A stretch of DNA of 64,000 nt from Daphnia pulex (taxonomy: Eukaryota > Arthropoda > Branchiopoda > Diplostraca > Daphniidae), in the NCBI RefSeq assembly GCF_021134715.1, contig NC_060027.1:1178001-1242000 (forward strand), written 5' to 3'. The notes beneath the pieces are model-generated. The model did no database searches, was not told the DNA's origin, and saw nothing but the letters and a program-made list of their open reading frames with translations. The translations under genes and the position numbers were made by a program. Positions 5,322-55,900 of this stretch are shown here, piece after piece (position 1 is the stretch's first letter; each line of letters opens with the position of its first letter).

Positions 5322-6466
5322 ATGTCACGCAAACCATGTTTCGTTTTTAATTGTAAATCTTCTTATAACAAAGAAAATGAAAGTCTTGCGTTTTTCCATC
5401 CACCGAAGTTGTGTCTAAATTCCTGGCAGGAAATTATTAAAAAGCCAGGACTCACTTGCCAGTCCAGAATTTGCAGTATTCATTTTGAAGAGAACGACAT
5501 ACTCAAAGGGAGAGAAATTCAAGGCGTGTTTTACAGTTATCCGAAATGGAAATTAAAATCAGGTGCTCGGCCCAGTAAATTGCTAGGTATTCTCAAATTT
5601 TAATTATCCATGACAATGTTAAGTTATACTAATACTGCTAATTCTGTATGTTTCTAACAGGAAATGATGTCAGCGTACTCGAAAGACCTGCTGCAAAGAA
5701 GTATGTTCACAGTGATAGGTTTAAGTCACCATATCGAAATATAACAGCAAAGTCTAAAGCTGCTAATCCTAAGCTGCAGTTGGACAATCAATCGTTTTTG
5801 TCGAATAACAACACCAATGTATTGATCCCATCACATGCAAAGAAGTCAACGTCAAATAGCATAGGTAAATTAAAAACTAAGTGTAATAAGATATTTTTTA
5901 AAAACATGACATGTTATGTTACAGCTATACACCAACTTGACGCTGAAAAAGGAAAAGTAAATGATATGGAAGCAGCTGAACCTGTGGCATTACCATGTGT
6001 AACAACAGAAGACATGTTCCAGGAACCTACTACTGAAACACTCCTACACATTCCACCAATATCTTGCCAAGAGTGTAAAGAAACAGTTGTTTGTGAGGAG
6101 GCTGATTTGCCAGACGATTTCACTGCAAAGCAGTACACAGCTTTTCGCAATAGAGGAGGACTAATTTTTGTTACAATCCCAGTCTTTCAATCAATACGGG
6201 AAGTGGAAAAGATTATTTCGTCTCAATTTGAAGATGACGGTCATTATTTAGTGAGAGATAGTTACGAAATTTGTATGTCAAAAATCAAAGTACTCAATCT
6301 TTGTCCTTTTTTTTGTGACACACACCGTGCTGACTCGTATCCTTATTTAATAATGGAATTCGTACAAGTTAGATATCATTTTGAATCAAAGCGTTTTCAA
6401 GAACGTAATTTGGCAGAAGTTGATAGTAACGTGCGACAAAATTTCAAGATGGCAAAACTTGCTTAA
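5322..6466 (+). CDS. THAP-domain protein, probably transposon-derived
   Basis: There are two exons: 5322-5586 and 5661-6466, with a 74-nt GT/AG intron in phase, for 356 residues. The N-terminus (about residues 5-85) is a THAP zinc finger. It has a C-x4-C pair (CFVFNC) soon after the start, an FF-H-P-P segment, a conserved W (WQEI), and the later C-x2-H pair (CSIHF). THAP domains bind DNA and occur in P-element transposases and host regulators. The middle is low-complexity and Ser/Asn-rich. The C-terminus contains FRNRGGLIF followed by an E-rich helix, which resembles the C-terminal block of P-element/THAP9-like proteins; this is an inference. The catalytic core of such a transposase is not present. 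Together with the flanking inverted repeats this suggests a non-autonomous or captured element carrying only a DNA-binding protein. The frame is intact. Confidence 0.8.
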
Positions 6467-6810: not shown

Positions 6811-9430
6811 AAATGGGCCAGTGTGATGTTCTGTCTCGATTTATTCACCGAGTCTGAAACCATCGCTCGTTTTCTATGTGAAACTAGGAGACGAGAAATG
6901 CGAAAGTTGATTTTTCATTATTAAAAAACTCTGGTAATTGTTATCAGATGGATTGCCATCTAAGATATAATGGCTAATTTATATTATAAGTAAGTCTTTT
7001 CATATTGGACGTTGTTTTGGACTTGATCGTCTTCCAAAAGAGAAAGGTTGCAATCGGATGATCAATCCCACGTCAACTGCCTACGGAGATGTATACCTGC
7101 TGCTGTTATTTTATTGTTTAAAGCGTGGCTTACATCCAATTGGTTTAGACGGCAAAGTGGTTCTAGCAAACATAACAAATAATTGTAACGTTCTGCTGGC
7201 TAATAATAGAAAATTGTGTCATTATTTCTCTTTAAATGTAACAAGTGACAACTTTTGGAACTGGTTTTTTTTATTACCTGTGAGCTGTGACTTATGATAT
7301 TTTTGTTTTTGTTTTTTCTTATTCTACAAAATATAATATAATTCTGATTATTTTGGTCTATTAAATGTAAGGTCAGTTTAAGAAAATTATGCATCATTTT
7401 TGAAAAAAACCGCGTCATTATTGTTTTTCAGACACCTAGTAGAGGAATTTTGTACTGCTTTGTGGAATCATGCTGTCGACTGCGTACCGCGTGGGTTTCA
7501 CATGCACATCACAAGTGAGATTGCTTTTCTTATAACTGTTTATGAAATATTTGTTATTTAGACTGTTTTAAATGGAGAAGAAACAAAAAACTGCCAGGAA
7601 CGGTTTTTGAGGAAACAGCAAATTGAACATGGGCAACTCTCGAATCGAAATGCTGTTTCATTATACCTTACTGTAAAACTAAATCTATCTTTTTTGTAGG
7701 TATGTACGTCATTTCTGATTTACCCATTCTCCAGCTGACAGAGATCAACAGGCAGTGAAACTGCAACATAAATATTCAAAGTAGGAGAAGATGCTCACAA
7801 TCATTGGTAGATCACTTTACGAAAACTGAAATTTTGATACATACATTGAAAGTTGAAACCTTTTCATTCTGACTTTCAGACGAGAAAACATGTTGCTTGA
7901 ATTACAAATTAAAATTTACTGGCATTACATTAGCTGGCACCCTTTCAACAAGCAAAAGCATCCCAAAGACAAACAGCTTTTGGAGACACAAACTACTTCA
8001 GTGCAACTACCACGTTGCTAAACTGAGTTAAAATCAGAAACCAAGACTCGAAATATTCCATATCATCAAGGCGTTGATGCCAGTATTTGAGGTAAACCAA
8101 GAAAAAGATAAACCAGGATCATGCACATTCAACATTTCCTGAAAACTATTGTAACTGTAAAACTTTATCAGATTGGTCCTAGTTCACCCTCAGTTAATCT
8201 GGCTGAATAAATTGAGTCACAACAGGAAACTTCTTAGGTTTATCCCATGAAAATAGGTGAGTGCAAATACTACGTATCGGAACTTCATATACTCTTATTT
8301 TATTTTTGATGCTATAGATATGGAATTTGAAGTGTTTGGATCGTGGACCGAATCATTCATTCGGCTGAAGATCTCGGTTCTCTGGGATGACTCGGCGTAA
8401 TAACTCACACATCTTGTTCAGGAGCAACTCACTCCCCTCATTTGGTTATTCACAATTTCGCTGAATTCATGTAGAATAAGGATCGGTAATCCACAGCCGT
8501 AAGGATACGTAATCGAAAGGACCCATTAAAAAACAAACAAATGTCATTCAGTTTTCTCTAAATTCAGATGCGAACGTTGTTCACCCTTTCATTCGTGGCG
8601 CCATTCCCATTCGTGAATATCAATTACTTCGTTCTCAATCCGTTTTCGTGTACAGGACGAGATTGATGCTTTGCACGAAAATTCATGATGTGCTTTCATT
8701 TCTTTGCTTTCATTTCAAAAGTCGTTATAGTGGACACTAGACAGTGGAAGAATTAGCCAAATGAGGCAAACCTCCAAGGGAAAACATCAAACATGAAGAG
8801 AAAACAAATCGTATTGTTGGAATGTCTAGTGACTGTATTCTGGGTAATTGCATTTGTGTAAATTTTTAAGCTAATAAAACTATCTTTATCTTTTGTGACA
8901 AGGAATAAGTCCGGTGCATTATTTACGTTACCTCCAAACAACCTAATTAGATTATGAAGATGATTTTGAATTGATTGCCGTCATTTTGGCATTGGCTTTC
9001 TCCCCCTCCGCATGAAATTGAATGAAGCAGCATTTAAGGTGAACACTTCCACTTATTTACATGAGTTGACTTGCATAATAGGGAGATGATGTTGTCAAGC
9101 CAGTGTCTTCACAAAGATTAAAGGGGAGGAGAGACAAAATAACTTTCAAGGCTGTTCGCTACCAAACGATGTTGAGTTCAAATTGGGTCAATAAAGGATA
9201 CTCCTCCCTTATTCAATTTGCTCTATTTTCATCTGACCTCGAATACAAAAAAATACCTCCAGCGTTGTTGCTGCGGGGAATCGACGTGCCGGTGGGCATT
9301 CTAGGAGCCCAAAAATGCTCAGTAGTCCACGTATTCGCACGGTGTGCACTTGTCTCTAGTTTGTTGCCGTAGTGTTGCATCTCTTCGCCTTTGCACTTGG
9401 ATTAATTTGGAATTATGCACTGCCTACACA
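6811..9430. other. intergenic with one orphan exon-like block
   Basis: No complete gene was recognised. At 7431-7515 a good acceptor (TTGTTTTTCAG) is followed by an open frame reading HLVEEFCTALWNHAVDC and on for about 28 residues. Another open stretch at 7058-7290 lies upstream. Neither matches a family I know, and they may be relics of one decayed gene. Confidence 0.35.
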
Positions 9431-9933
9431 ATTTGTCGTTCGTTGCTGGTTTCTCTGTAGTGTTTTTTTTTCGTAGATTTCGTTTTACTATCTGATCACT
9501 ATGTCAGCACAATTGCACTGGAATAGTCTTGTAGTGTTCGTAGATTGATTCACCTTATTTGTTGTCCACACTTTGTTGTCCAGTTACTTAATTAGAGTAA
9601 GCCAATCTAGATAAGGTTAAAGTTAAGCATAAGTTAAGATATTGTAGGTTAAGCCGTTTAGCTAAGCTAAGGCTATTGTAGGTTAAGCTAAGTTTAGGTT
9701 TAAGTTCACGATAGAGTTAGTTGCCAATTTACTGTGGTGCCTCTGTGGTGTAGAAAATTCGTCTTTAGCAATCCCCAACCCTAACGTGTCAACTAATAAC
9801 CCTTTTTCTTTCAGGAAATTGTGAATCTAAATTGAATGTTTTAGCTGTATATTTTCTATTTTTGCTTAATTGATTGTGGTTTAAAAAAACTATAAAGTTT
9901 TATCCATCATTTGTCGTTGATCAAATTAGGATC

Positions 9934-10562
9934 ATGGACCGGAGAGGATCGCCGCCGCCACTACAAGATCGTCGCTTCAAGATAGGACCCTGGCCCACGG
10001 GTCGAAGGTACATTTCATTTGATTTTAAATGCCTTCAACTTCTTTTATTAATGTTTTTGGATTTTCTTTAGACTGGAGAGGATCGCCGTCGCCGCCGCCG
10101 CCGCCACCCCACCGGAGCCGCTTCAAGATCGTCGCACGCTAGGACCTTCGCCAATGGATCTCAGGTATATTTTTTAATTCTAAGTGTCTAACCATACTTT
10201 TTTTATGTACTCTAGATGGGACCCAGGACCAAGGAGGATCGCCGCCGCCACTACAAGATCGTCGCTTCAAGATAGGACCCTGGCCCACGGGTCGAAGGTA
10301 CATTTCATTTGATTTTAAATGCCTTCAACTTCTTTTATTAATGTTTTTGGATTTTCTTTAGACTGGAGAGGATCGCCGCCGCCGCCGCCGCCACCCCACC
10401 GGAGCCGCTTCAAGATCGTCGCACGCTAGGACCTTCGCCAATGGATCTCAGGTATATTTTTTAATTCTAAGTGTCTAACCATACTTTTTTTATGTACTCT
10501 AGATGGGACCCAGGACCAAGGAGGATCGCCGCCGCCACTACAAGATCGTCGCTTCAAGATAG
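9934..10562 (+). CDS. candidate ORF from the leader exon of the cassette array
   Basis: If every intron is removed, the ATG at 9934 reads through the leader (9934-10007), A1 (10072-10164), B1 (10216-10297) and A2 (10362-10451) into B2, where TAG at 10560-10562 ends it after 132 residues. The product would be Pro/Arg/Ala-rich with LQDRR and GPWP motifs. Block B of 82 nt shifts frame at each passage, so later units could only be translated through exon skipping or from internal ATGs. No homologue was recognised. The array could equally be a spliced non-coding transcript or a spliceable satellite. Confidence 0.25.
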
Positions 10563-13500
10563 GACCCTGGCCCACGGGTCGAAGGTACATTTCATTTGAT
10601 TTTAAATGCCTTCAACTTCTTTTATTAATGTTTTTGGATTTTCTTTAGACTGGAGAGGATCGCCGCCGCCGCCGCCGCCACCCCACCGGAGCCGCTTCAA
10701 GATCGTCGCACGCTAGGACCTTCGCCAATGGATCTCAGGTATATTTTTTAATTCTAAGTGTCTAACCATACTTTTTTTATGTACTCTAGATGGGACCCAG
10801 GACCAAGGAGGATCGCCGCCGCCACTACAAGATCGTCGCTTCAAGATAGGACCCTGGCCCACGGGTCGAAGGTACATTTCATTTGATTTTAAATGCCTTC
10901 AACTTCTTTTATTAATGTTTTTGGATTTTCTTTAGACTGGAGAGGATCGCCGCCACCGCCGCCGCCGCCACCCCACCGGAGCCGCTTCAAGATCGTCGCA
11001 CGCTAGGACCTTCGCCAATGGATGTCAGGTATATTTTTTAATTCTAAGTGTCTAACCATACTTTTTTTATGTACTCTAGATGGGACCCAGGACCAAGGAG
11101 GATCGCCGCCGCCACTACAAGATCGTCGCCAAGATAGGACCCTGGCCCACGGGTCGAAGGTACATTTCATTTGATTTTAAATGCCTTCAACTTCTTTTAT
11201 TAATGTTTTTGGATTTTCTTTAGACTGGAGAGGATCGCCGCCGCCGCCGCCGCCGCCGCCACCCCACCGGAGCCGCTTCAAGATCGTCGCACGCTAGGAC
11301 CTTCGCCAATGGATGTCAGGTATATTGTTTTATTCTAAGTGTCTAACCATACTTTTTTTATGTACTCTAGATGGGACCCAGGACCAAGGAGGATCGCCGC
11401 CGCCACTACAAGATCGTCGCTTCAAGATAGGACCCTGGCCCACGGGTCGAAGGTACATTTCATTTGATTTTAAATGCCTTCAACTTCTTTTATTAATGTT
11501 TTTGGATTTTCTTTAGACTGGAGAGGATCGCCGCCGCCGCCGCCGCCGCCGCCACCCCACCGGAGCCGCTTCAAGATCGTCGCACGCTAGGACCTTCGCC
11601 AATGGATGTCAGGTATATTGTTTTATTCTAAGTGTCTAACCATACTTTTTTTATGTACTCTAGATGGGACCCAGGACCAAGGAGGATCGCCGCCGCCACT
11701 ACAAGATCGTCGCCAAGATAGGACCCTGGCCCACGGGTCGAAGGTACATTTCATTTGATTTTAAATGCCTTCAACTTCTTTTATTAATGTTTTTGGATTT
11801 TCTTTAGACTGGAGAGGATCGCCGCCGCCGCCGCCGCCACCCCACCGGAGCCGCTTCAAGATCGTCGCACGCTAGGACCTTCGCCAATGGATGTCAGGTA
11901 TATTTTTTAATTCTAAGTGTCTAACCATACTTTTTTTATGTACTCTAGATGGGACCCAGGACCAAGGAGGATCGCCGCCGCCACTACAAGATCGTCGCCA
12001 AGATAGGACCCTGGCCCACGGGTCGAAGGTACATTTCATTTGATTTTAAATGCCTTCAACTTCTTTTATTAATGTTTTTGGATTTTCTTTAGACTGGAGA
12101 GGATCGCCGCCGCCGCCGCCACCCCACCGGAGCCGCTTCAAGATCGTCGCACGCTAGGACCTTCGCCAATGGATCTCAGGTATATTTTTTAATTCTAAGT
12201 GTCTAACCATACTTTTTTTATGTACTCTAGATGGGACCCAGGACCAAGGAGGATCGCCGCCGCCACTACAAGATCGTCGCTTCAAGATAGGACCCTGGCC
12301 CACGGGTCGAAGGTACATTTCATTTGATTTTAAATGCCTTCAACTTCTTTTATTAATGTTTTTGGATTTTCTTTAGACTGGAGAGGATCGCCGTCGCCGC
12401 CGCCGCCGCCACCCCACCGGAGCCGCTTCAAGATCGTCGCACGCTAGGACCTTCGCCAATGGATCTCAGGTATATTTTTTAATTCTAAGTGTCTAACCAT
12501 ACTTTTTTTATGTACTCTAGATGGGACCCAGGACCAAGGAGGATCGCCGCCGCCACTACAAGATCGTCGCTTCAAGATAGGACCCTGGCCCACGGGTCGA
12601 AGGTACATTTCATTTGATTTTAAATGCCTTCAACTTCTTTTATTAATGTTTTTGGATTTTCTTTAGACTGGAGAGGATCGCCGCCGCCGCCGCCGCCACC
12701 CCACCGGAGCCGCTTCAAGATCGTCGCACGCTAGGACCTTCGCCAATGGATGTCAGGTATATTTTTTAATTCTAAGTGTCTAACCATACTTTTTTTATGT
12801 ACTCTAGATGGGACCCAGGACCAAGGAGGATCGCCGCCGCCACTACAAGATCGTCGCTTCAAGATAGGACCCTGGCCCACGGGTCGAAGGTACATTTCAT
12901 TTGATTTTAAATGCCTTCAACTTCTTTTATTAAAGTTTTTGGATTTTCTTTAGACTGGAGAGGATCGCCGCCGCCGCCGCCGCCGCCGCCACCCCACCGG
13001 AGCCGCTTCAAGATCGTCGCACGCTAGGACCTTCGCCAATGGATGTCAGGTATATTGTTTTATTCTAAGTGTCTAACCATACTTTTTTTATGTACTCTAG
13101 ATGGGACCCAGGACCAAGGAGGATCGCCGCCGCCACTACAAGATCGTCGCCAAGATAGGACCCTGGCCCACGGGTCGAAGGTACATTTCATTTGATTTTA
13201 AATGCCTTCAACTTCTTTTATTAATGTTTTTGGATTTTCTTTAGACTGGAGAGGATCGCCGCCACCGCCGCCGCCGCCACCCCACCGGAGCCGCTTCAAG
13301 ATCGTCGCACGCTAGGACCTTCGCCAATGGATCTCAGGTATATTTTTTAATTCTAAGTGTCTAACCATACTTTTTTTATGTACTCTAGATGGGACCCAGG
13401 ACCAAGGAGGATCGCCGCCGCCACTACAAGATCGTCGCTTCAAGATAGGACCCTGGCCCACGGGTCGAAGGTACATTTCATTTGATTTTAAATGCCTTCA

Positions 13501-13681
13501 ACTTCTTTTATTAAAGTTTTTGGATTTTCTTTAGACTGGAGAGGATCGCCGCCGCCGCCGCCGCCGCCGCCACCCCACCGGAGCCGCTTCAAGATCGTCG
13601 CACGCTAGGACCTTCGCCAATGGATGTCAGGTATATTTTTTAATTCTAAGTGTCTAACCATACTTTTTTTATGTACTCTAG

Positions 13682-13762
13682 ATGGGACCCAGGACCAAGG
13701 AGGATCGCCGCCGCCACTACAAGATCGTCCCCACCGCCGCAAAGGACTTCGAAGATCTTTAA
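13682..13762 (+). other. distinct terminal exon of the cassette array
   Basis: The last block B keeps the first ~48 nt of the unit and then switches to unique sequence. In the frame that starts at its own ATG it reads MGPRTKEDRRRHYKIV followed by PTAAKDFEDL and TAA. Read backwards, this frame stays open through A13, B12, A12, B11, A11, B10 and A10 (from 12667), if all introns are spliced. It closes in A9. A coding end for the 3' third of the array is therefore possible. Confidence 0.35.
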
Positions 13763-14022
13763 ATGGTACGGTATAATTTTTTCCTACCTAAGGTTGTGTG
13801 AGTGTATTATCGTGTTAAATGTGTGTGTGTAAGTATGGATTTGTTGTTTATTCCCTCTCCAATATAACCTTACCTTCACAATTACGGTATATAATTATGG
13901 TCTAGAAACAGTATTCTCACTCCCGTATCATAATCCTATTTTCCATTCGCATCACTCTTTTTTTGGTTAGTCAAAGTATACATTTAGTTTTGCTGCTGGT
14001 CTAGTTTTTTAGTTTATTCATA

Positions 14023-14096
14023 GTTTTAGTTTAGTTTTAGTTTAGTTTTAGTTTAGTTTTAGTTTAGTTTTAGTTTAGTTTTAGTTTAGTTTTAGT
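14023..14096 (+). repeat. minisatellite of TTTAGTTTTAG units
   Basis: About seven tandem copies of an 11-nt T/A/G unit (AGTTTTAGTTT) lie 260 bases downstream of the cassette array. It is not the arthropod telomere repeat TTAGG. Confidence 0.9.
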
Positions 14097-14585
14097 TCTA
14101 ATTAGTGTTTTAGTTGGTGGTTTAGTATTATTACAGTAGATATTCGGTAACAATCTAGGTAGTTGGTATTGTAGTTTATTTTTAGCTTATTATTATAAAT
14201 ATCAACGCCGTTATTAATAGTGGAAATTGGACCAATTTCCTTTTTTAATTACGGCCAATTTAATTGGTAAACAATCCACGTTGACCAAGGGTAAGGAAAT
14301 TCAAAATTCATCGGCGTTTCTGTTCGTTGTTTGATTAACCAGAGGGAACATTGACATTGAGGCAATATACACTACTGCGCCTACTTTTTTCGCTGAGCTG
14401 TGTTAGTCTTTTTGTTATTATTATTTTTTTTCGAAATTTTGAAAGACACATATCTGGAATCTGAATTCTGATCATCACAATATTTCATCACATATCTGAA
14501 GTATTTTTGTTTGGCAACGTCTTATGGATCGCATGTTCGGATTGTTCGCATCATTTGTCATTTCGTCTGTGGCGTGGTCTGATCT

Positions 14586-24812: not shown

Positions 24813-25466
24813 AACTATATAGCACAAGCCATTCTTTGAAAATGAAAAGAAAATCACAAGCTACCGTACTCCATCACTACTCTGCAACCGAACAAAAAAT
24901 ACAAACGGCATTTATCACTTTCTTTTCTTAAAAAAAACAAACAGCATGCAATTCTCTCGACCAACATTCGTTAAAAGTCTTTTGTAACCCAATCAAAAAC
25001 CGCAACCTGGTTCAATAATTCTTGCTGACGCTAAAGAACAAGTTAAGACTCTATATCGAGATAAATCAGCTATAGGAACAGATAACGACAATAGAATAAC
25101 TAAATGTGGGTTGAAGGAATGGTGTCTAAAAAGGGGAGAAACTATATAGCACAAGCCATTCTTTGAAAATGAAAAGAAAATCACAAGCTACCGTACTCCA
25201 TCACTACTCTGCAACCGAACAAAAAATACAAACGGCATTTATCACTTTCTTTTCTTAAAAAAAACAAACAGCATGCAATTCTCTCGACCAACATTCGTTA
25301 AAAGTCTTTTGTAACCCAATCAAAAACCGCAACCTGGTTCAATAATTCTTGCTGACGCTAAAGAACAAGTTAAGACTCTATATCGAGATAAATCAGCTAT
25401 AGGAACAGATAACGACAATAGAATAACTAAATGTGGGTTGAAGGAATGGTGTCTAAAAAGGGGAGA
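24813..25466. repeat. 327-bp direct tandem duplication at the 3' end of TopBP1-like copy 1
   Basis: 24813-25139 and 25140-25466 are nearly identical (both begin AACTATATAGCACAAGCC). The unit includes the last ~40 nt of the TopBP1-like coding sequence and its stop, so a duplicate coding tail lies downstream of the real stop. The 41-47 kb copy has a single unit. Confidence 0.9.
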
Positions 25467-28400
25467 AATTCTGGCAAAACACATTCCGCCCACTGGCACT
25501 TATTGTCTTTGGCGAGGATCAAGTCCCTGAGATAATTGGGTGGGACGCAATAGATACCTTTACTGGCGTATAAACGAAGTTTAATTTTGTTGATTTCACG
25601 ACTATCCAGGACACAGAGGTTGGTCTTTCCATTCTCCAAAGCCAATCTAAAACAGAGAAAATGAATCGAAGGCAATTACATATTGTTTCGTTTGTGGTTT
25701 AATAAGTTGAAATGGATATCTTACTCGGGAGCAATCACTTCTCCTCCGCCGGCTTCAATTAACTGCTGGAAGGCATCGTTCTTCTTGCGGAGGTAAAGTA
25801 CGGCCTTAATGCCTTGGAAAGGGCCGGTAGAAAGGCCACGGTTTCGAATAGTGCGCCAGTAATAAGCAGCGGCGGAAATCCTGGCTTCCTCTTTGGAAAT
25901 GGAATCATTGGACGTAGGATTGCCCCACTCGAATATTCGCTCATCGACAAAGTGATAAGTTTGCTCGCTCTTTGCGATCCATCCAGGATGAACAATCCAT
26001 TTTCCTGCAGCGATAGATGTCATCAGCTTGTCGTTACACTCAAGTTTGGCAACTACAAGGTGAGTGCATGTTGAATCGTAATGTTTGCCATCGATGGCAA
26101 TCCCGCCTAGCACTTCGATTATTTGAACACAGCTGTCACGATCTTCTTGTGACATACCAGAGAACATGATCCGGAAAGAATGGCCACTGTACCGTGAAGC
26201 ATTTAGCCTCTTCGACTCGTTTAGTCTCTTCGATGCATTTGGCCTTTGTGAAATCCGGCTAACTGCATCTGGTGAACACGGTGGTGGTGCCAAACGTACA
26301 GGAACATTTTCCAACTGGCTAGCTACTGGATCGTTTGGCAAGGAAATCTCCTGAGTTGGACGAGGGAGAACTTGCTCGGCCTGCAAGGGTTTTTCTTCTT
26401 CAGCTAGACTGTTGGGAAGGCTTTGCAGTTCATGTGTGGTTTCCAGGGGACCGGAAGAGACGGGCGCAACATCTGGTAATAAAACTGTTTCAAAGTTTAG
26501 GGACGGTTGATAGCAAGTTGCAGCACGCAAACGACTTCCAGCATATTCGCAGTCTACGATCCACTGAGGCAAGACGAACAGTTGATTCCATTTTCTGGCA
26601 TTCTGCATATCTTCGGAAGGGGTCAACTCGCCCTGACATATGAAATGAGTTACTTCCTGGGAGTGCTGGAGAATAACTTGACCGCCCAGAGTTGTGATGA
26701 ATTCCTCCATCTCGAGTCGTCTGTCTTCTTCGATCTCCTGGCCAATAAAAATCCTCGCCTCGTGTAACGGAGGAAGATTCGGATCCGGCAAAGGCGAAGC
26801 TTCTGCATTTGTCACCTCATCTGTAACTTCCCAATTGCAGTTTAACAATTTTTCAGTTAGATTTGCAAAATAATCCTCGGCGAGGGAAACCAAAGTTTCT
26901 CTTTCACTCTTGATTGGAGACGTAGTGGTCGGTGAATCTTCTGGTCTGGGCGTCAAACGGACGCGGTTATCCAATGCATGTTTCCACAGTTTTCGAGTAT
27001 TTGGTGATGGATCCGGCTAAAAAGAAATGGAATTTAGAAATTAAGAAATACAAAGAAGAAATCAATTGTTAATAGTTTACAGTAGGGCGACATTACATTT
27101 AATAATCGTCCGTATGGAGTGTCGGGTGTACGCATATTACTAAGAGCTGGTCGAGGTGTGGGGGATATACCGAAAGATTTTGTACCATGAGAAGTCTGCA
27201 GTAAAAAGCCCTCTGAAGCCGAGTCAGTCAGGACAGGGAGTATCACAGGAATCGTTGGTTGCCCCATCTAGATAAAGAAAAATTATGAAGTTAAGCTGAA
27301 TGATTAAGCACAAATTTAAGCACAAAATACTTGAACAGGCGTGGGGGCATCAAAAGTAATTGACGAAAATGAAACAGGAGCTGAGAGTGTTTGATCACCA
27401 GGTGGTCGAAAGATCCCGAAATCTGTTTCCTTCAGTCGAGTACTAGAAGTGGCGGATGCAATAATCCATTCAGCGTTAACGACAGGGACTCCCCACTTGA
27501 TGGCTTTTTCATATTTCCTTCCTTCAGCTTCGGGGCATACAAGATGTGTGGAAGGGTAAACGTCTTTAGCTTCGACCATTTTGCGAGAGAAGAACTCTTG
27601 TTGTTTGCCTCCAAGATGTTCGACCAAGTACTTAAGGAAATCTCTCAGTCGACCTTGAATCCCACTGAACGACACCACACATCCTGCAAATATTTGACTG
27701 TTCTGGAATTTGATTGGTTGATGATAGATTTCAATTTCCACTAGACAATCCTCATCGATGCAGTCCTCGATCCAAAATGTGTTGATCGCAACAGCTTGCC
27801 CAACTGGATCGTCTGGGAGCAATTCGGCATGGACGACGGGTGTAGTAACCTTGTATTTGGCGCCGTTTGACACTACGCGACCTCCGTTACTTTCGATGAG
27901 ATCTGTCGTCCAATACATCCAATTCGCATCCATGGAACCAACGAGTTGAAAAGTGAGATCGGAAAATAGGGCATCGACAGGACGAAATTTCAACAATACT
28001 GACACATCTTCTTCCATTTCTGTTTCGTCAGCTGTAGTCAAGTTCTCAAAGATCGTTTGCAGGTCTTTTTCTTCAGGGCAATTGTTGTTTTCTTCAGTTG
28101 TGACATTTTTGGCGGTGCTCTGCTTACTGAGAGTCCGTACGTACTGCACGTCGTCTTGGGAATCCCCCGTTGCCATCGATACAAGCTCAGGCGTAGGCTC
28201 CTTAGAGAAGCTGCTTATAGTGAAGAGGTTCTTGTAAATAGGATGCAGATACTTGGCTTCGGGAGCTGGTGCTTTTCAGGACTCGCCTGTAATGAAACAA
28301 GATAAAATAAAATAAATCAAAATTTTAAAACACTGGACAGTCTTGCTGCAAGAGGTTCTTGCTGAAAGAGGTTCTTGCTGCAAGATTGCTTTGACAAGAA

Positions 28401-28679
28401 TGGGATTGCAATTGTATATGGAATCGAGAAGACACAGTGGACCAACAACTGTGCACTCGTAACTTTGAAGAAATTCAATTAACAGACTGCTGAATTCAGA
28501 CAAGATAAATACATGTTCTTTGATGGGTTTCAACTCCAAACATTCATTTTCTGGAATCCACACAACATTTAAGCCATGGTCCTTGCAACACTTGTAAGCA
28601 AGAGTCAAGTTCTTATTACATGTAGCCTCGTTTGAATGGAAAGGAATAACGCAAAATATTTTTTTACAAAGCTGGCTAT
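25427..28679 (-). pseudogene. topbp1: TopBP1-like gene, copy 1 (start lost, BRCT1-3 missing)
   Basis: Minus-strand exons are 28679 down to about 28320 (BRCT0), about 28260-27331 (linker, BRCT4, BRCT5), 27267-27097 (linker with a TPDTPYGRLL motif), 27016-25725 (BRCT6, BRCT7, start of BRCT8) and 25646-25427. All later junctions are clean and in frame. TopBP1 is a BRCT scaffold that activates ATR and is needed for replication initiation. BRCT0 is followed directly by the linker before BRCT4, so BRCT1-3 (the RAD9/Treslin-binding part) are gone. The junction intron has no good GT donor, and an in-frame TGA (28276-28278) lies just after the apparent acceptor. A 17-nt deletion removed the ATG seen in copy 2, leaving TGA immediately upstream in frame. 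It is probably non-functional, or a truncated paralogue using another start such as 28176. A full-length parent gene elsewhere is inferred. Confidence 0.8.
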
Positions 28680-29742
28680 TTCACACATCAGCAGTTTGAT
28701 CTTACAAGAGGCTCTGGAAACTAACTAATAAAATATATAAGTTTGTGTTGGCAGAATAACAAAGCTAACAAGATTAATTCCCATTTACTTATAAATACCA
28801 GAATAAAAATTGTACCTGTCGCTTTAAGATGACAAAATATTAAGAAGGCTGTCGTCACTCAATCGCCCTGACGTGCACGTGTCAACTGATTTTAGACAGC
28901 AGGGCAGCCGAATTATTACGACTCGTTGCTATAGCCACCAACCACCATTTGCCAATTTTCTTAATTCAAAGAAAAGCATATTTAAAAAAAATAAAATTAA
29001 TTTAAAAATCGTTATTTTGGTCTCTGGTTCGGCTACCACATGGCTACTGCTACAAAACTAAATTAATTTTCACACAATCCAATTGGTTTCTTTATTAAAA
29101 AGCAAGCACGATTCCATCTTTCATTGGAAAACACGATTAGCAAAATTAAAACAAAAACTTTAAGCCAAGAATATAAATGAACGGAAGAAAATCGGAATTC
29201 GACAAAAAAAATAACAAATTAAGTTTAACAGGTTAATTTTTCGTTGAGCATGTGCAGTACATAGAAATTTAGGTCTCTTAAAGCCAACAAAAAAGAATAA
29301 ACTAACTATTAAACGATGAGAAGTTTATTGAAACGACGAGTCTTAAGTCATAACCAGTTAACCGCCAGCAATTATCATATTTTAGTGCACATCAACACGA
29401 TGCGACAGCGTGTTGTTTTTGTTTGTTAGTTCTCACGAAAAGCACTCGCGCCACCTATTGGATATATTTATACATTAAGTGACAGCGGGATTGCATTGCA
29501 AATGGTAGCAAATCACAAAAGCAGACAAAAAACCAAATAAATCAAAACATCCAACACACTCCAGGATAACAGCGGCATCAAAGACTCCATGTAACAGCTC
29601 AACTCAATCAAAGAATAGTTGAAAGGAAAATACAAACCGCGGCTCTCGTGAAAGTAAACAGGTAAATAATGCAGACGAAAACTATCAATCAAATGGCTTG
29701 ATACGCAATTGTTGATTACAATACGATAAACGATTCCAAGTA

Positions 29743-34294: not shown

Positions 34295-36193
34295 CTAAGA
34301 AAAGTATTCACCGTTGAGCTCCTTGTCTTTCTGGAGTAGACTGCCCTTCAGAGTGGGGTCGGGCCGATAGCGCTTGAAGAATCCCAGTCTCCAGAGCAAG
34401 AGGATGACTAGCAGCAAAATTCCGGCCAAAACGCTGACGATGATGATCCACAGAGGGACGGACGGTGACTCGCCAGTGTCCAACCGATCCGGGTACACCA
34501 TCGTTTCAGCCTTGGGAGTGAAACAAAAATTCATATCATTAAAACAATCATTCATGTTATGATGAAACATCGGATGCAATCTCACATAATCGAGATCATC
34601 TTCCATCCGCTGTGTGATTTCCAGGGAAGGATCCAGGGAAATGTGGGCTTTGGAACGTATCTTGACGGTGTGAATGCCTGGGAAATCCTCGACAAGGGTC
34701 GCATTCCACAATCTGAAAAGCAATCAAAAAGCCAAGCCATAAGTTACGAGACGTCAACGCCGGCCCACTCGTCCAAAAATTAATGCGGCCTGCTGCTCAA
34801 CTGACCTGGCTCGGATTTTAATCACGGCCCATTGCTTGCTCTGCAGATTCCTGATGTTGCACCGAAACATGAAGTACTCGGCCGTCCCGCGATCGCAGTC
34901 CTAAACGGGCATTAAAAAGAAACGTAAGTTTAATTAGATTGGGGCGGCGCAGTTTTTCATTTCAGATTGGTGGGCAGATTTCGGGGTTTTAATTTACCAT
35001 AGTGACGACGTGGCGGGTCTTGCCCTCGTTATCGACGATAGCCTAGGGCAGAATGACGACGCCCACTTGCCGTTTCTGACGGGTTGAATTGACCGGCGCG
35101 GAATCCATTTCAACAATCTCGTTCTCGTCAATGTCGCTGATGGTCGGAACGGGCAAATGTCTGGCCAAATGCTCGATGGGAGCCTCGACGAATCCGGGCC
35201 GCTTGGGGAGATCGAGCACGTTCACTTGCTTGGGATCCATGATACACTCGCCATCACCTGCACGAGTCAAACCACGACAGTGAAAAATGTTTAGGGCCCC
35301 AGTTGATTGTCTTTCCGGACCAGAAATTCAATTTCGAAACGCTCATCAGCGTCGGCCTTTTTACGGCTCCTAAAAGACTTGGCTAATGAAAGGGGTGGGT
35401 TATTTACCGTCGACTTTAGGGGTCTCGTCCATGTAGAGGAGCCATTTGCCGATGGGTTTCCCGTTCTCGACCTGGTAGGGCCACGAAAAGATGACCGACA
35501 GGAACGGCACCTTCCACGGTCCCGCATTGTAGATTTCGTAGCAGTGAAGCAGGGGCTGGCCGATTTCGTCACGGTACTTGATGGTGGATTGAACCTCGCC
35601 ACCGAAAAAAACCTGCTCCGATCGGCCCAATCTAAAGAAATCAGCCCGCCACGAAAAAGTTATGATCATGATTATTTTGTGTCTCTTTACTTTTTTGCTG
35701 CCAAGACTTTGTTTAGTTGTAGTTGCCATACCCTTTGATTGAGATTTCGGCTCATTTGACCACGTTGGCGTAGACGGGAATGTTGCCTTCGGGTTCGAGT
35801 TCTTGACACGTCGTGTTTGTAAAGATGAGGAAAGCCAGACGGGCTTCGGAATCCTCGACGTTGCTGGGATTGAACCGCAGTTTGACGTATCCAGATCTGT
35901 CGAACGGTAGGGCAACAAACTTTCAAGTTTTTTGGCTTTTTGGGAAGAGATTCAAGTAGCGTCCACTTACCCGTGTTTGAAAGGGTTGCCCAGCGAGCAC
36001 GTGACCATGGTGGCGTTAAACGAGTTGCAGAGCAGTTGATTGGCCTCCGAGACTCGGCCGATGAAGCTGAGCGATCGCGGGTGGGAGACGTAGAGACCGG
36101 CCTCGTATGCCGACTCTCCAGTGTTGGTAACGGATATGTCCAGGACGACTTCCTGGAGCTCACCCAGTTCCAGAATGGAAACGCCATCTTCGC
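34295..36193 (-). pseudogene. integrin alpha, C-terminal part only, two in-frame stops
   Basis: Seven exons (36193-35971, 35896-35732, 35631-35408, 35257-34998, 34900-34806, 34712-34586, 34510-34295) join in perfect phase. They encode thigh/calf-like beta domains, an RQKRQ furin-type cleavage site, a transmembrane helix (VPLWIIIVSVLAGILLLVIL) and the GFFKR cytoplasmic motif. This is the hallmark of an integrin alpha subunit, which pairs with beta for matrix adhesion. The N-terminal beta-propeller is missing; upstream lies unrelated coiled-coil sequence. TGA at 35752-35754 (VVK*AEISIKG) and TAG at 35043-35045 (VVILP*AIVDN) interrupt the frame. Each fits a single C-to-T change (CGA, CAG). I see no frameshift. 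It is probably a truncated, fairly young pseudogene. Confidence 0.8.
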
Positions 36194-42895: not shown

Positions 42896-45800
42896 CTAAA
42901 TGTGGGTTGAAGGAATGGTGTCTAAAAAGGGGAGAAATTCTGGCAAAACACATTCCGCCCACTGGCACTTATTGTCTTTGGCGAGGATCAAGTCCCTGAG
43001 GTAATTGGGTGGGACGCAATAGATACCTTTACTGGCGTATAAACGAAGTTTAATTTTGTTGATTTCACGACTATCCAGGACACAGAGGTTGGTCTTTCCA
43101 TTCTCCAAAGCCAATCTAAAACAGAGAAAATGAATCGAAGGCAATTACACATTATTTCGTTTGTGGTTTAATAAGTTGAAATGGATATCTTACTCGGGAG
43201 CAATCACTTCTCCTCCGCCGGCTTCAATTAACTGCTGGAAGGCATCGTTCTTCTTGCGGAGGTAAAGTACGGCCTTAATGCCTTGGAAAGGGCCGGTAGA
43301 AAGGCCACGGTTTCGAATAGTGCGCCAGTAATAAGCAGCGGCGGAAATCCTGGCTTCCTCTTTGGAAATGGAATCATTGGACGTAGGATTGCCCCACTCG
43401 AATATTCGCTCATCGACAAAGTGATAAGTTTGCTCGCTCTTTGCGATCCATCCAGGATGAACAATCCATTTTCCTGCAGCGATAGATGTCATCAGCTTGT
43501 CGTTACACTCAAGTTTGGCAACTACAAGGTGAGTGCATGTTGAATCGTAATGTTTGCCATCGATGGCAATCCCGCCTAGCACTTCGATTATTTGAACACA
43601 GCTGTCACGATCTTCTTGTGACATACCAGAGAACATGATCCGGAAAGAATGGCCACTGTACCGTGAAGCATTTAGCCTCTTCGACTCGTTTAGTCTCTTC
43701 GATGCATTTGGCCTTTGTGAAATCCGGCTAACTGCATCTGGTGAACACGGTGGTGGTGCCAAACGTACAGGAACATTTTCCAACTGGCTAGCTACTGGAT
43801 CGTTTGGCAAGGAAATCTCCTGAGTTGGACGAGGGAGAACTTGCTCGGCCTGCAAGGGTTTTTCTTCTTCAGCTAGACTGTTGGGAAGGCTTTGCAGTTC
43901 AGGTGTTGTTTCCAGGGGACCGGAAGAGACGGGCGCAACATCTGGTAATAAAACTGTTTCAAAATTTAGGGACGGTTGATAGCAAGTTGCAGCACGCAAA
44001 CGACTTCCAGCATATTCGCAGTCTACGATCCACTGAGGCAAGACGAACAGTTGATTCCATTTTCTGGCATTCTGCATATCTTCGGAAGGGGTCAACTCGC
44101 CCTGACATATGAAATGAGTTACTTCCTGGGAGTGCTGGAGAATAACTTGACCGCCCAGAGTTGTGATGAATTCCTCCATCTCGAGTCGTCTGTCTTCTTC
44201 GATCTCCTGGCCAATAAAAATCCTCGCCGCGTGTAACGGAGGAAGATTCGGATCCGGCAAAGGCGAAGCTTCTGCATTTGTCACTTCATCTGGATCCTCC
44301 CAATTGCAGTTTAACAATTTTTCAGTTAGATTTGCAAAATAATCCTCGGCGAGGGAAACCAAAGTTTCTCTTTCACTCTTGATTGGAGACGTAGTGGTCG
44401 GTGAATCTTCTGGTCTGGGCGTCAAACGGACGCGGTTATCCAATGCATGTTTCCACAGTTTTCGAGTATTTGGTGATGGATCCGGCTAAAAAGAAATGGA
44501 ATTTAGAAATTAAGAAATACAAAGAAGAAATCAATTGTTAATAGTTTACAGTAGGGCGACATTACATTTAATAATCGTCCGTATGGAGTGTCGGGTGTAC
44601 GCATATTACTAAGAGCTGGTCGAGGTGTGGGGGATATACCGAAAGATTTTGTACCATGAGAAGTCTGCAGTAAAAAGCCCTCTGAAGCCGAGTCAGTCAG
44701 GACAGGGAGTATCACAGGAATCGTTGGTTGCCCCATCTAGATAAAGAAAAATTATGAAGTTAAGCTGAATGATTAAGCACAAATTTAAGCACAAAATACT
44801 TGAACAGGCGTGGGGGCATCAAAAGTAATTGACGAAAATGAAACAGGAGCTGAGAGTGTTTGATCACCAGGTGGTCGAAAGATCCCGAAATCTGTTTCCT
44901 TCAGTCGAGTACTAGAAGTGGCGGATGCAATAATCCATTCAGCGTTAACGACAGGGACTCCCCACTTGATGGCTTTTTCATATTTCCTTCCTTCAGCTTC
45001 GGGGCATACAAGATGTGTGGAAGGGTAAACGTCTTTAGCTTCGACCATTTTGCGAGAGAAGAACTCTTGTTGTTTGCCTCCAAGATGATCGACCAAGTAC
45101 TTAAGGAAATCTCTCAGTCGACCTTGAATCCCACTGAACGACACCACACATCCTGCAAATATTTGGCTGTTCTGGAATTTGATTGGTTGATGATAGATTT
45201 CAATTTCCACTAGACAATCCTCATCGATGCAGTCCTCGATCCAAAATGTGTTGATCGCAACAGCTTGCCCAACTGGATCGTCTGGGAGCAATTCGGCATG
45301 GACGACGGGTGTAGTAACCTTGTATTTGGCGCCGTTTGACACTACGCGACCTCCGTTACTTTCGATGAGATCTGTCGTCCAATACATCCAATTCGCATCC
45401 ATGGAACCAACGAGTTGAAAAGTGAGATCGGAAAATAGGGCATCGACAGGACGAAATTTCAACAATACTGACACATCTTCTTCCATTTCTGTTTCGTCAG
45501 CTGTAGTCAAGTTTTCAAAGATCGTTTGCAGGTCTTTTTCTTCAGGGCAATTGTTGTTTTCTTCAGTTGTGACATTTTTGGCGGTGCTCTGCTTACTGAG
45601 AGTCCGTACGTACTGCACGTCGTCTTGGGAATCCCCCGTTGCCATCGATACAAGCTCAGGCGTAGGCTCCTTAGAGAAGCTGCTTATAGTGAAGAGGTTC
45701 TTGTAAATAGGATGCAGATACTTGGCTTCGGGAGCTGGTGCTTTTCAGGACTCGCCTGTAAAGAAACAAGATAAAATAAAATAAATCAAAATTTTAAAAC

Positions 45801-46161
45801 GCTGGACAATCTCGCTGCAAGAGGTTCTTGCTGAAAGAGGTTCTTGCTGCAAGATTGCTTTGACAAGAATGGGATTGCAATTGTATATGGAGTCGAGAAG
45901 ACACAGTGGACCAACAACTGTGCACTCGTAACTTTGGAGAAATTCAATTGACAGACTGCTGAATTCAGACAAGATAAATACATGTTCTTTGATGGGTTTC
46001 AACTCCAAACATTCATTTTCTGGAATCCACACAACATTTAAGCCACGGTCCTTGCAACACTTGTAAGCAAGAGTCAAGTTCTTATTACATGTAGCCTCGT
46101 TTGAATGGACAGGAATAAATCAAAAGATTTTTTTACAAAGCTGGCTATTTAAAACTTCCAT
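42896..46161 (-). pseudogene. topbp1: TopBP1-like gene, copy 2 (early TGA, BRCT1-3 missing)
   Basis: The structure is as in copy 1, shifted by 17469: last exon 42896-43115, then 43194-44485, 44566-44736, about 44800-45730, and the BRCT0 exon up to 46161. This copy keeps an ATG at 46161 (MEVLNSQLCKKIF), which fits the family N-terminus. Codon 14 is TGA (46120-46122), where copy 1 has TGC. BRCT1-3 are absent and the junction is equally poor, so that deletion predates the duplication. Only a handful of residues differ between the copies (for example EVTDE/DPDE, HEARIF/HAARIF, EHLGG/DHLGG). The BRCT4-8 exons are open throughout, so an internally initiated protein cannot be excluded. Confidence 0.8.
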
Positions 46162-52946: not shown

Positions 52947-55900
52947 ATGCTTCCGTCAGTTGGATACTTCAAAAGTATCGTCTGTCCTTATTTCGAAAAT
53001 GAGTCGTGTGAGAGGCCACATTGTCAATTCCGACACGAACACTTGCCTGTTCGAGCACCTAAACCAACTGTGGTCCTCAGAAGTATGCATGTTTTTGTCT
53101 ATTATGCAACACAAAAGAGCAATACTAACTGCTTTTATACCTTTGCAGCTCATGATCCTGGCCCATCTCAAGGATCTCAAGAAGGAGAAAATTCTTCGTC
53201 AATCGAGCAGATAGTGTCTGAAGCTGTCAAACGGGTCCTAAAGGAAAATGGACAGCTTTTGGAGAATTTTGATGCCTCCAAAATTATGGAACTTGTTGGC
53301 CAGCAGAAGCTGGTTGAGAAGGTTGTGGAACATCTTGCCCCTCCTGTCAGTCCCAAGAAAGTTGAAGGAAATCCTAGAGAATCTAGCCATAAAAGCAAAA
53401 GTCACAAATCCTACAACATACCTGTCGGAACCCCCGCCTATACTCCTACGCCCATTGCTGTTCTCAAGAAAGGCATAACAACCCCTTCGAAAGTGGAAAA
53501 TTATGAACCCACAAAACCATCTTCTGGACGGGTAGCCACTTACAAACCCAGCAGTAAGGTTGCTGCCAAATCAGAAGAGACCTATACACCATCCACTTTG
53601 GAAAGCACTTCAATCCCGTCTAGAGTAGATAATTATGTGCCTAGAAACTCATCCACTAGTTCAACTGCCACCTACAAGCCTAGCAAAGTCGTCTCAATTA
53701 AAACAGAAGAAGGTTACACCCCTCCCTCCACGTTAGAAAACACTCCCGACGTCAACTACACACCGAGTAGTAGGGATTCAGATAACATCATCAGTGATCG
53801 CTACACCCCTCCGTCCAATTTGAACTGCGACGTCGACTACCAGCCAACCACTCGAGAATTGAGCTCTGTTGAACCGTCGTATTCTCCCAGTTGTTCAACA
53901 TTCGAATCTGGAATCGCCGATTACTCGCCCAGCTCTATCTCGACTCTATCCACCGAGCCGAGTTACAGTCCAGCACCGACCAGTAGCAGCGTTTCGTTCG
54001 AAGTTGACTACACGCCCAGCTCTTTGGCCAGCGGCCAGCAGCTGACACCTGAAAAATACCTCGAACTTTTCGAAGATGCGGAAGAGGCCAGCGAGTCCGA
54101 GTCGAAGAAGAAACACCGAAAGACCAAAGAGGAGGAAAGGCGGAAAAGGGAAAAGGAGAAAGAGCGTGAAAGAGAAAAGGAACGACGCCGGCGGAAAGAG
54201 AAGGAAAGAGAAAGGGAAAAGGAAAAGAAGAAAAGTAGTCGTTCAAGTTCAGATCAAGATTCCAAATCAAAACATTCAAGCAATAAAAAATCGGGTAGTT
54301 CCAGTTCCAGTCCCAAGAAGAGCAAATCTTCAGAATCTAAAAAATCCGAGTCTAAATCTGAAGAATCTAAGTCATCTAAACACGATGTGGAAATGGAGTC
54401 GGACTCTGACGTGGACGAAGAGTGCTACCGAATATTCAAGGTAAGATTTAAAAAATTGTGTACGTAAAACTCGTTTAGGTTTTAATTACTGCCCAATTTA
54501 TTTAGGAATACAAACCGAGTGCAACTAGCAGCAGCAACGGACAAGCTGACGATCACAAGAAGCGGAAATCGGAAGATGTGCCTCCCGTTTCAGAGGCGAT
54601 TATTCCCGTGAAGAAGCAGCGGGTAGCTCATACTCATGTCGACGCTCCAGTCCGACCGTCCAGCCTTGTTCGTGCCAAACCTGCACGCCTTACTCCGGGC
54701 ATGATGATGATTGACCGTTTCAAAAGCTTCCAAGAGGCCAAAGCGGCGAGCGGAGAGCAATCTTGGCCACAGCTTTCGTCCACTTCACAACGGATTGCTG
54801 CTCCACGTCCATCGCCTTCGTCGTCATCCGGTGGAGCAGAAAAGAAGCGCATCGCCCATGTTCCTAACGTGATGGGTATGCTTACCTCTAGACCCAAAGC
54901 TGCTGCTCCGGCGACTGTTACGCCTGGTCTTCCGGCTGGTTCGGGATTGCCGACCAACCAGCAACAACCAACGACGCTGCAGAGAGCCGCCTTACCTGGA
55001 AACAACGCTTTCCGGCGACCTGTTCCCAACAAAGCAGCTGGGCCACCCGTTCCGGCAGTGAAAGCTCCGCCGCCCAAACTTCCACGTCCCATGATAGCGA
55101 TTGAACTGGGCTGTCGGGTGCCGGCCAATATTCGACAAAAGTATCTCAACATCCTGGTGGACGAAACGCTCAAAATTTACGACCGGGAAGAAGATGCTTA
55201 TGAAAGAGCCGTCGAAGAAGAAAGGCAGTCCTATGCCAAGTGTAGCAGTAGGATCGTGTACGCCAACGTCATCACCAACGTAGTCCAGCGCATCCGGCGA
55301 GAAGCTGAAAGTAACAGCAATCCGAGTTCCACTATTCAAAGTATGAAATTCATTTTCCCCCATAATTTGGTTATCAATTTAAATTTTTCCTTTTTCACAT
55401 CCAGATGACAAGAAGATGATGTCCCACTCGGCTGTATTGGCTGGCAAAGGAGGAGCCACCGTGTCTTGGAGTATTGAAAAGCCAAAATCAAGCAAGATCG
55501 ATTCCAGTCTCTTGAAAGGAGCAACCCTGTACAAACTGATGGAACGACACCTCCTCACTCTGGAGCAACAGGATTTCAATGGGTTTCCACGACCGGATCC
55601 CAATGAAAGAGGTCGAGCCCTCGTCAATCCCATCAACAAATTCCGCACAAAGCCGAGTGTCCACCTAGCACCTGACGAGCGCAATTGCGATCGATGTAGT
55701 AAAGTTTACAAAGTCAACAGTAAAGGCCTAGCCGTCAAACAGTTGAGTCGACAATTTCATCATTATCTTTTATGATAGTTGTTGTAAAACTTTTTAAATT
55801 TTTATAGGGACGACACCTGTTCCTACCATTGGGGCAAACCCTTCGCCCGTCGCGGTGAGACTCGTTATACCTGCTGCAAAGGGGAGGCCAATTCCGACGG

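Follow-up and report, generated by a model that had tools for sequence, protein, structure and literature searches.

In some MaSp2 silk genes of Argiope, two exons together with two small, near-identical, alternating introns form the repeated core unit (PMC9779670). These introns are homogenised within a gene and divergent between genes, and several paralogues exist; the MaSp genes lie mainly in one genomic cluster and their units are protein-coding (PMC9779670). The repeated introns of silk genes have been proposed to keep the repeats in register, and the authors state that they know of no other eukaryotic gene in which two homogenised introns alternate (PMC9779670). Repeats that carry exons or splice sites are described in several other genes as well. 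In the spliced non-coding RNA FIRRE, the repeat RRD, a nuclear retention signal, coincides with 7 of 13 exons in human and 11 of 23 in mouse; FIRRE is a single locus with known expression, and its repeats are rare elsewhere (PMC4820808). LPA KIV-2 is a two-exon tandem unit present in 1 to >40 copies (PMC6314250). In the Schistosoma SmPoMuc genes, the repeated unit of ~1 kb carries a single 27-bp exon that codes for 9 amino acids (PMC2576457). In the polyubiquitin gene UBC, splice sites lie inside coding tandem repeats, and one site serves as both donor and acceptor (PMC10809524). A literature search for repetitive introns, identical or homogenised, in tandem arrays or non-coding RNA found Argiope MaSp2 (PMC9779670) as the one relevant case, and a search on Daphnia exon-intron tandem repeats gave no such array among the matches listed, as judged by titles and the beginnings of abstracts.

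The window (the whole stretch of Daphnia pulex DNA analysed here, 64,000 nucleotides) contains an array on the plus strand that opens with an ATG (9934) and closes with a TAA (13762). Tandem Repeats Finder reports the interval 9944-13729 with a period of 287, 13.1 copies and 97% matches (score 7156). Direct parsing bore out the initial annotation, which had read 13 units with two complete GT...AG introns of 64 and 51 nt each. The introns alternate strictly, intron A always being 64 nt and intron B always 51 nt long, and all 26 carry their own GT and AG (for A and B alike, 13 donors and 13 acceptors), i.e., the splice signals are indeed inside the repeated unit, as had been proposed. They are flanked by 27 exons, and the description of these as GC-rich exon-like blocks was correct as well: in one representative copy, the GC content is 0.62 in exon A and 0.68 in exon B versus 0.23 and 0.24 in the introns. 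The 12 internal exons A are 82 nt (eight copies) or 80 nt (four copies) long, the first exon A measures 74 nt from the ATG, the last one 81 nt to the TAA, and the 13 exons B have 87-96 nt. The proposed unit of ~288 bp thus stands as a repeat, but not as a fixed length: units measure 282-293 bp, and most of the difference lies in a GCC tract of exon B. Exon A aligns with exon B better than any of 300 shuffles (z 6.0), and the same is true of intron A and intron B (300/300, z 3.3), one copy of each being compared. Because both the exons and the introns align above all shuffles, the unit is a dimer derived from an older exon-intron monomer.

Unit 1 occupies positions 9934-10215 (exon A, 9934-10007; intron A, 10008-10071; exon B, 10072-10164; intron B, 10165-10215) and unit 2 positions 10216-10502 (exon A, 10216-10297; intron A, 10298-10361; exon B, 10362-10451; intron B, 10452-10502). 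Direct parsing places the following units, with the same succession of exon A, intron A, exon B and intron B and on the same strand, at 10503-10789 (unit 3), 10790-11079 (unit 4), 11080-11370 (unit 5), 11371-11663 (unit 6), 11664-11948 (unit 7), 11949-12230 (unit 8), 12231-12520 (unit 9), 12521-12807 (unit 10), 12808-13100 (unit 11), 13101-13388 (unit 12) and 13389-13681 (unit 13); the 80-nt variant of exon A is found in units 5, 7, 8 and 12. The last exon (13682-13762) consists of 48 nt of exon A followed by a unique tail.

Three of the genes mentioned above resemble this array in some respects. LPA KIV-2 shares the tandem two-exon unit and differs in belonging to one gene, in the size of the unit (5.6 kb, with a 4-kb intron) and in encoding kringle domains (PMC6314250). 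SmPoMuc shares an exon-containing repeat, the presence of several loci and the concerted evolution of the repeats (PMC2576457), and differs in its ~1-kb unit with a single 27-bp coding exon. These two are coding relatives, by analogy of layout only. UBC has splice sites within tandem repeats in common with the Daphnia array; however, it uses one dual-purpose site, whereas each Daphnia unit has two full introns.

With one unit as query, the window's own genome (133,188,837 bases, 13 contigs) gave 139 matches, which form dispersed clusters. Complete arrays could be parsed in eleven of these clusters, located on seven contigs, with 13 (window), 18, 9, 12, 14, 10, 24, 8, 2, 9 and 8 units, 127 in total, and the order ABAB... 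is kept in all of them. Together they contain 254 introns, 253 of them GT-AG; the sole exception is the acceptor of one intron A at locus c7b. The B donors read CAG/GTATAT in 127 of 127 cases, and the A donors differ only at +4 to +6. The ATG of the first exon A is present at all 11 loci, and a last exon of the same kind, with TAA at ten loci and TTA at one, closes every array. A 25-nt piece of exon A, searched with up to 3 mismatches allowed, had 67 + 53 genomic matches against 0 for the control, and, among the matches listed, all fall in the arrays. Since the 11 separate loci carry different unit variants, an artefact confined to the window locus is unlikely.

The resemblance between the loci goes beyond the arrays. 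An upstream block, the 5' core (9083-9933, plus strand), is present at all 11 loci, the other ten copies being 85-93% identical to that of the window. At near full length (~850 bp) it was found in at least 11 places, always next to an array, and furthermore as at least one partial copy and at least one extra piece; weaker homology 5' of the core extends back to ~7383. Downstream, the arrays have a 3' core in common (13763-14480, plus strand), which is partly deleted at the loci c4 and c6 and beyond which identity falls to ~70-80%. In the window copy of the 3' core, Tandem Repeats Finder detected an exact 11-bp repeat, TAGTTTTAGTT, present seven times (14021-14097). Two further places were kept outside the 11-locus counts. 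One is a truncated extra copy at C9:8090584-8090941, a piece of the 5' core beside a piece of array, ~10 kb from the array C9:8101392. The other, c7d (C7:4015419), is a decayed relative in which a 152-bp monomer, one exon plus a B-like intron, is present in 1.9 copies and one acceptor AG reads GG; it was set apart as monomeric and because its flanks match none of the other loci at E 1e-10.

If the predicted exons and introns are real, they should differ in conservation. Changes between loci were counted on the tree of the 5' core, with one majority sequence per locus and leaving out sites with fewer than nine loci present. Exon A had 2 changes in 82 sites and intron A 35 in 64; counted as changed sites, the difference is 2/82 versus 17/64 (Fisher p 2e-5), and the step in variability from exon A to intron A sits at the predicted donor. 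In exon B, 27 changes in 91 sites were found, mostly in the GCC tract (7 in 51 sites of its 3' part), and in intron B 8 changes in 51 sites. In the surroundings, there were 165 changes in 797 sites of the 5' core, 146 in 388 sites of the 3' core and more than one change per site in the outer flanks. Exon A is slower than the 5' core (2/82 versus 138/797 changed sites, p 1e-4). No significant difference was found between intron B and exon A (5/51 versus 2/82 changed sites, p 0.11) or between intron A and the 5' core (p 0.09). The exon/intron partition is probably biological, because exon A has 2 changes in 82 sites and the adjoining intron A 35 in 64, and with this contrast a chance occurrence of GT and AG is unlikely. 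The earlier exon/intron reading is supported for the A half of the unit, where the exon is kept and the intron drifts between loci, and is much less clear for intron B. Note that the single-copy last exon has 13 changes in 81 sites, much above the array exon A. As this exon changes faster, part of the uniformity of exon A may be due to homogenisation rather than selection, and homogenisation within, perhaps also between, arrays may help to keep exon A uniform.

Two other candidate splice signals lie outside the arrays. A possible leader intron at 9597-9814 (plus strand) starts with GTAAGCC and ends with CTTTCAG in the window, and both GTAAGCC and AG/GAAATTG are present in 11/11 loci. It shows no contrast with the adjoining predicted exon (0.196 versus 0.197 changes per site), so that it counts as a candidate. 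On the 3' side of the last exon, a possible donor, GTAAGTAT (13829-13836, plus strand), is likewise present in 11/11 loci, with 0.18 changes per site before and 0.32 after it and without an established acceptor.

Units tend to resemble others of the same array. The nearest neighbour of a unit belongs to the same locus in ~109 of 127 cases for intron A, 99 of 127 for exon B and 62 of 127 for intron B, where 13 are expected. Correspondingly, intron A diverges by 4.2% within a locus and 10.4% between loci, and intron B by 0.7% and 4.1%. Outside the cores, upstream homology extends over ~2.2-3.5 kb at ten of the 11 loci (~1.8 kb at c7c), and downstream homology over up to ~4 kb within the flanks fetched. 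The identity of the flanks is mostly ~70-80% between distant pairs, with many insertions, and recent pairs share more. In particular, c4 and c6 represent a duplication of >12 kb, mostly ~94% identical and with a sharp 5' start. Despite this identity over most of the shared flanks, c4 has 24 units and c6 only 8, which implies a fast change of unit number. From these sequence comparisons, the loci look to have spread by repeated segmental duplication with fast array turnover, and not clearly by a transposon. A DUF4789 gene, whose product by eye looks secreted, is located downstream of the c6 array (L030:662-2092, C6) and the c4 array (L031/L033, C4). It has no match in the window and the 50 kb downstream of it, and beyond c4 and c6 there was one weak match (43% over 28 residues, E 0.006), in the flank of c7d. 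A link of this gene to the arrays was dropped as unproven, the coverage elsewhere being just ~3-5 kb downstream.

The arrays could represent a non-functional satellite, i.e., an old gene-derived exon-intron monomer that underwent amplification and was spread, flanks included, by segmental duplication. Its uniformity would then be due to unequal exchange and gene conversion only, and the splice signals would be passengers. Much of what is described above would fit: the tandem units and their strong homogenisation within a locus, the outer flanks common to the loci and the long c4/c6 duplication, the decayed 152-bp monomer at C7:4015419 with its GG in place of an acceptor AG, the last exon evolving faster than the array exon A, and the lack of an open frame at 11/11 loci under canonical splicing. 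However, if whole units were converted, exon and intron should be copied as one, yet 35 changes accumulated in intron A and 2 in exon A, and the splice dinucleotides are intact in all but one of the 254 introns. Conversion in short tracts limited to exons could produce the same contrast. The contrast between exon A and intron A (2/82 versus 17/64 changed sites) argues against a plain satellite, but the p value of 0.11 for intron B versus exon A and the faster last exon leave room for homogenisation. On balance, we regard a non-functional satellite as rather unlikely.

The second question is whether the arrays encode a protein. Exon A is 82 nt long in 105 of the 116 internal copies at the 11 loci; exon B has 3n+1 nt at ten loci, except for one 84-nt copy in c5, and 3n nt at the window locus. 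Because these lengths keep no phase, the frame rotates from unit to unit. Read from the ATG with canonical splicing, it meets a stop at codon 39-132 in 11/11 loci, and the TAG that closes one of the frames is invariant in the internal exons A (116/116) and in the exons B (127/127). Irrespective of an ATG, the window copy has a stop-free stretch of up to 316 codons, and the other ten have at most 148. A protein made by canonical splicing was therefore rejected, the frame being closed at all loci, and so was an antisense protein, as the antisense of the spliced exons is stop-free over at most 79 codons. Synonymous changes were evaluated over 82 columns in exon A and, in exon B, over alignment columns 56-123, its 3' part. 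In the three frames, 3, 3 and 4 of 11 variants in exon A were synonymous (expected 3.0, 3.2 and 3.2), and in exon B, with most of the GCC tract excluded, 8, 5 and 5 of 21 (expected 6.4, 5.4 and 6.2). Among the distinct variants of exons A and B, no frame has a clear synonymous excess, the largest being 8/21 versus 6.4.

A repetitive protein gene of the silk type could nevertheless be read with splice sites other than those predicted. In fact, of 108 uniform combinations of alternative GT and AG sites, 11 leave 6 or 7 of the 11 loci open, and the length differences of exon B are mostly multiples of three. However, about one ninth of the combinations (12/108) are expected to be in phase by arithmetic alone, such a reading needs other GT and AG sites near the conserved ones, and the window locus is closed in all of the best 6 of the 108 combinations, while the canonical combination is open in 0/11 loci and a clear synonymous excess is missing. 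A silk-type protein therefore appears improbable. Like Argiope MaSp2, the Daphnia arrays have an alternating exon pair and intron pair and are homogenised within a locus; unlike it, the MaSp2 genes being coding and clustered, they are frameless at every locus and occur at 11 loci on seven contigs. We do not place the family among the silk-type iterated-intron protein genes, because layout and homogenisation fit and the reading frame fails. The initial annotation knew of no described family with this layout; in view of the two alternating homogenised introns of Argiope MaSp2 (PMC9779670), this claim has to be given up. New here are the lack of an open frame, the 11 dispersed loci and the far higher conservation of exon A than of intron A.

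Alternatively, a short arginine-rich protein of 39-132 codons could be made from the conserved ATG, the remaining array staying untranslated. The ATG is found at every locus, and the frame ends at a TAG of exon B where the first exon has 60 nt, which is the case at eight loci, while a TAG of exon A closes it at the other three. Yet the length and sequence of such a protein would shift with the GCC tract, and many exon junctions would follow its stop codon, an arrangement that normally triggers mRNA decay. We consider this explanation quite improbable.

As to mobile elements, neither transposase nor reverse transcriptase domains were found in the selected stop-free ORFs of the flanks that were scanned, and a self-tblastn of flank ORFs was uninformative, giving, among the matches listed, many frames and both strands. 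A large mobile element carrying the array as cargo, suggested by the upstream limits of homology and the one sharp point at which c4 and c6 begin, is very improbable, as the recent pairs share more flank and the limit may be no more than the end of what is still conserved, the scanned flank ORFs hold no transposase-type domain, and neither termini common to the loci nor target-site duplications of the array unit were established.

Several searches concerned known RNAs and foreign origins. The window has no Rfam match at the gathering score and no tRNA. Copies of the spliced exon junctions (both junctions) had 0 matches in the genome at up to 3 mismatches, so a processed copy as proof of splicing is absent. 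Shuffled versions of the unit 2 exons fold better than the exons themselves (exon B, z +3.45; exon A, z +1.14), i.e., there is no sign of a structured RNA. A phage origin was dismissed, as no match in phages was found, and exact patterns had 0 matches in viral, bacterial and archaeal contig collections.

The rest of the window contains several other features. A plus-strand ORF at 5642-6466 has 43 matches in the genome, the best of them 96-99% identical, and is a multi-copy element; it has no Pfam family, and we take it to be a THAP-like transposon. Exon-like blocks are present at ~7384-8433, several of which recur elsewhere in the genome without an array. Two ORF clusters of nearly the same lengths on the minus strand (25721-28680 and 43190-46119) are apparently duplicates of each other; BRCT domains were found in those of their ORFs that were scanned, which are TopBP1-like by a weak match below the cut-off. 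At 24813-25468, Tandem Repeats Finder detected a 327-bp unit repeated twice with 100% matches. Furthermore, a minus-strand ORF at 35400-35951 has an integrin alpha Ig-like domain, and a plus-strand ORF at 54506-55408 an Elongin A binding-protein 1 domain.

We favour the explanation that the arrays are a family of spliced, modular non-coding RNA genes over that of a repetitive protein and, judging from the sequence, put the probability of this whole explanation at roughly 0.5. The array would be the body of one member of a dispersed family of 11 genes. Its transcript would start in or above the common upstream core and run through the array, and the spliceosome would remove the mini-introns, 26 here and 4 to 48 at the other loci. 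The mature RNA, ~2.3 kb at the window locus, would then consist of alternating, near-identical A and B exons. This RNA would encode no long protein and would most likely work as a non-coding RNA, the repeated exons providing many copies of one binding module. Unequal exchange would gain, lose and homogenise units within a locus, with the repeated introns as matched sequence.

FIRRE is the functional analogue that we would test first. As in FIRRE, the repeat coincides with exons, which in Daphnia are predicted ones only, and a long ORF is lacking, the ORF from the ATG having 39-132 codons. FIRRE differs in being one locus, compared with 11 here, and in its known expression. Furthermore, to our knowledge, FIRRE repeats form no tight exon-intron tandem array. 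More tentatively, with a chance clearly below even from the sequence, the loci may be dispersed non-coding genes of 2-24 exon-intron pairs with up to 48 near-identical introns, whose product would be a spliced RNA polymer with a length set by the unit number and by chance splice pairing. The choice of splice partners would be a matter of chance, as the donors of each type are all alike and so are the acceptors.

If the non-coding explanation is true, the Daphnia family would, within the literature searched, be the first non-coding case of two homogenised introns that alternate. A frameless family with 11 natural replicates of 2-24 units would separate the pull of a protein sequence from that of recombination and splicing. 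This would make testable whether repeated introns keep repeats in register, as proposed for silk genes, and whether the repeat number sets the dose or size of an RNA. The pairing of identical sites by the spliceosome would become testable as well, and a family of RNA polymers, if real, would be a natural test bed for it.
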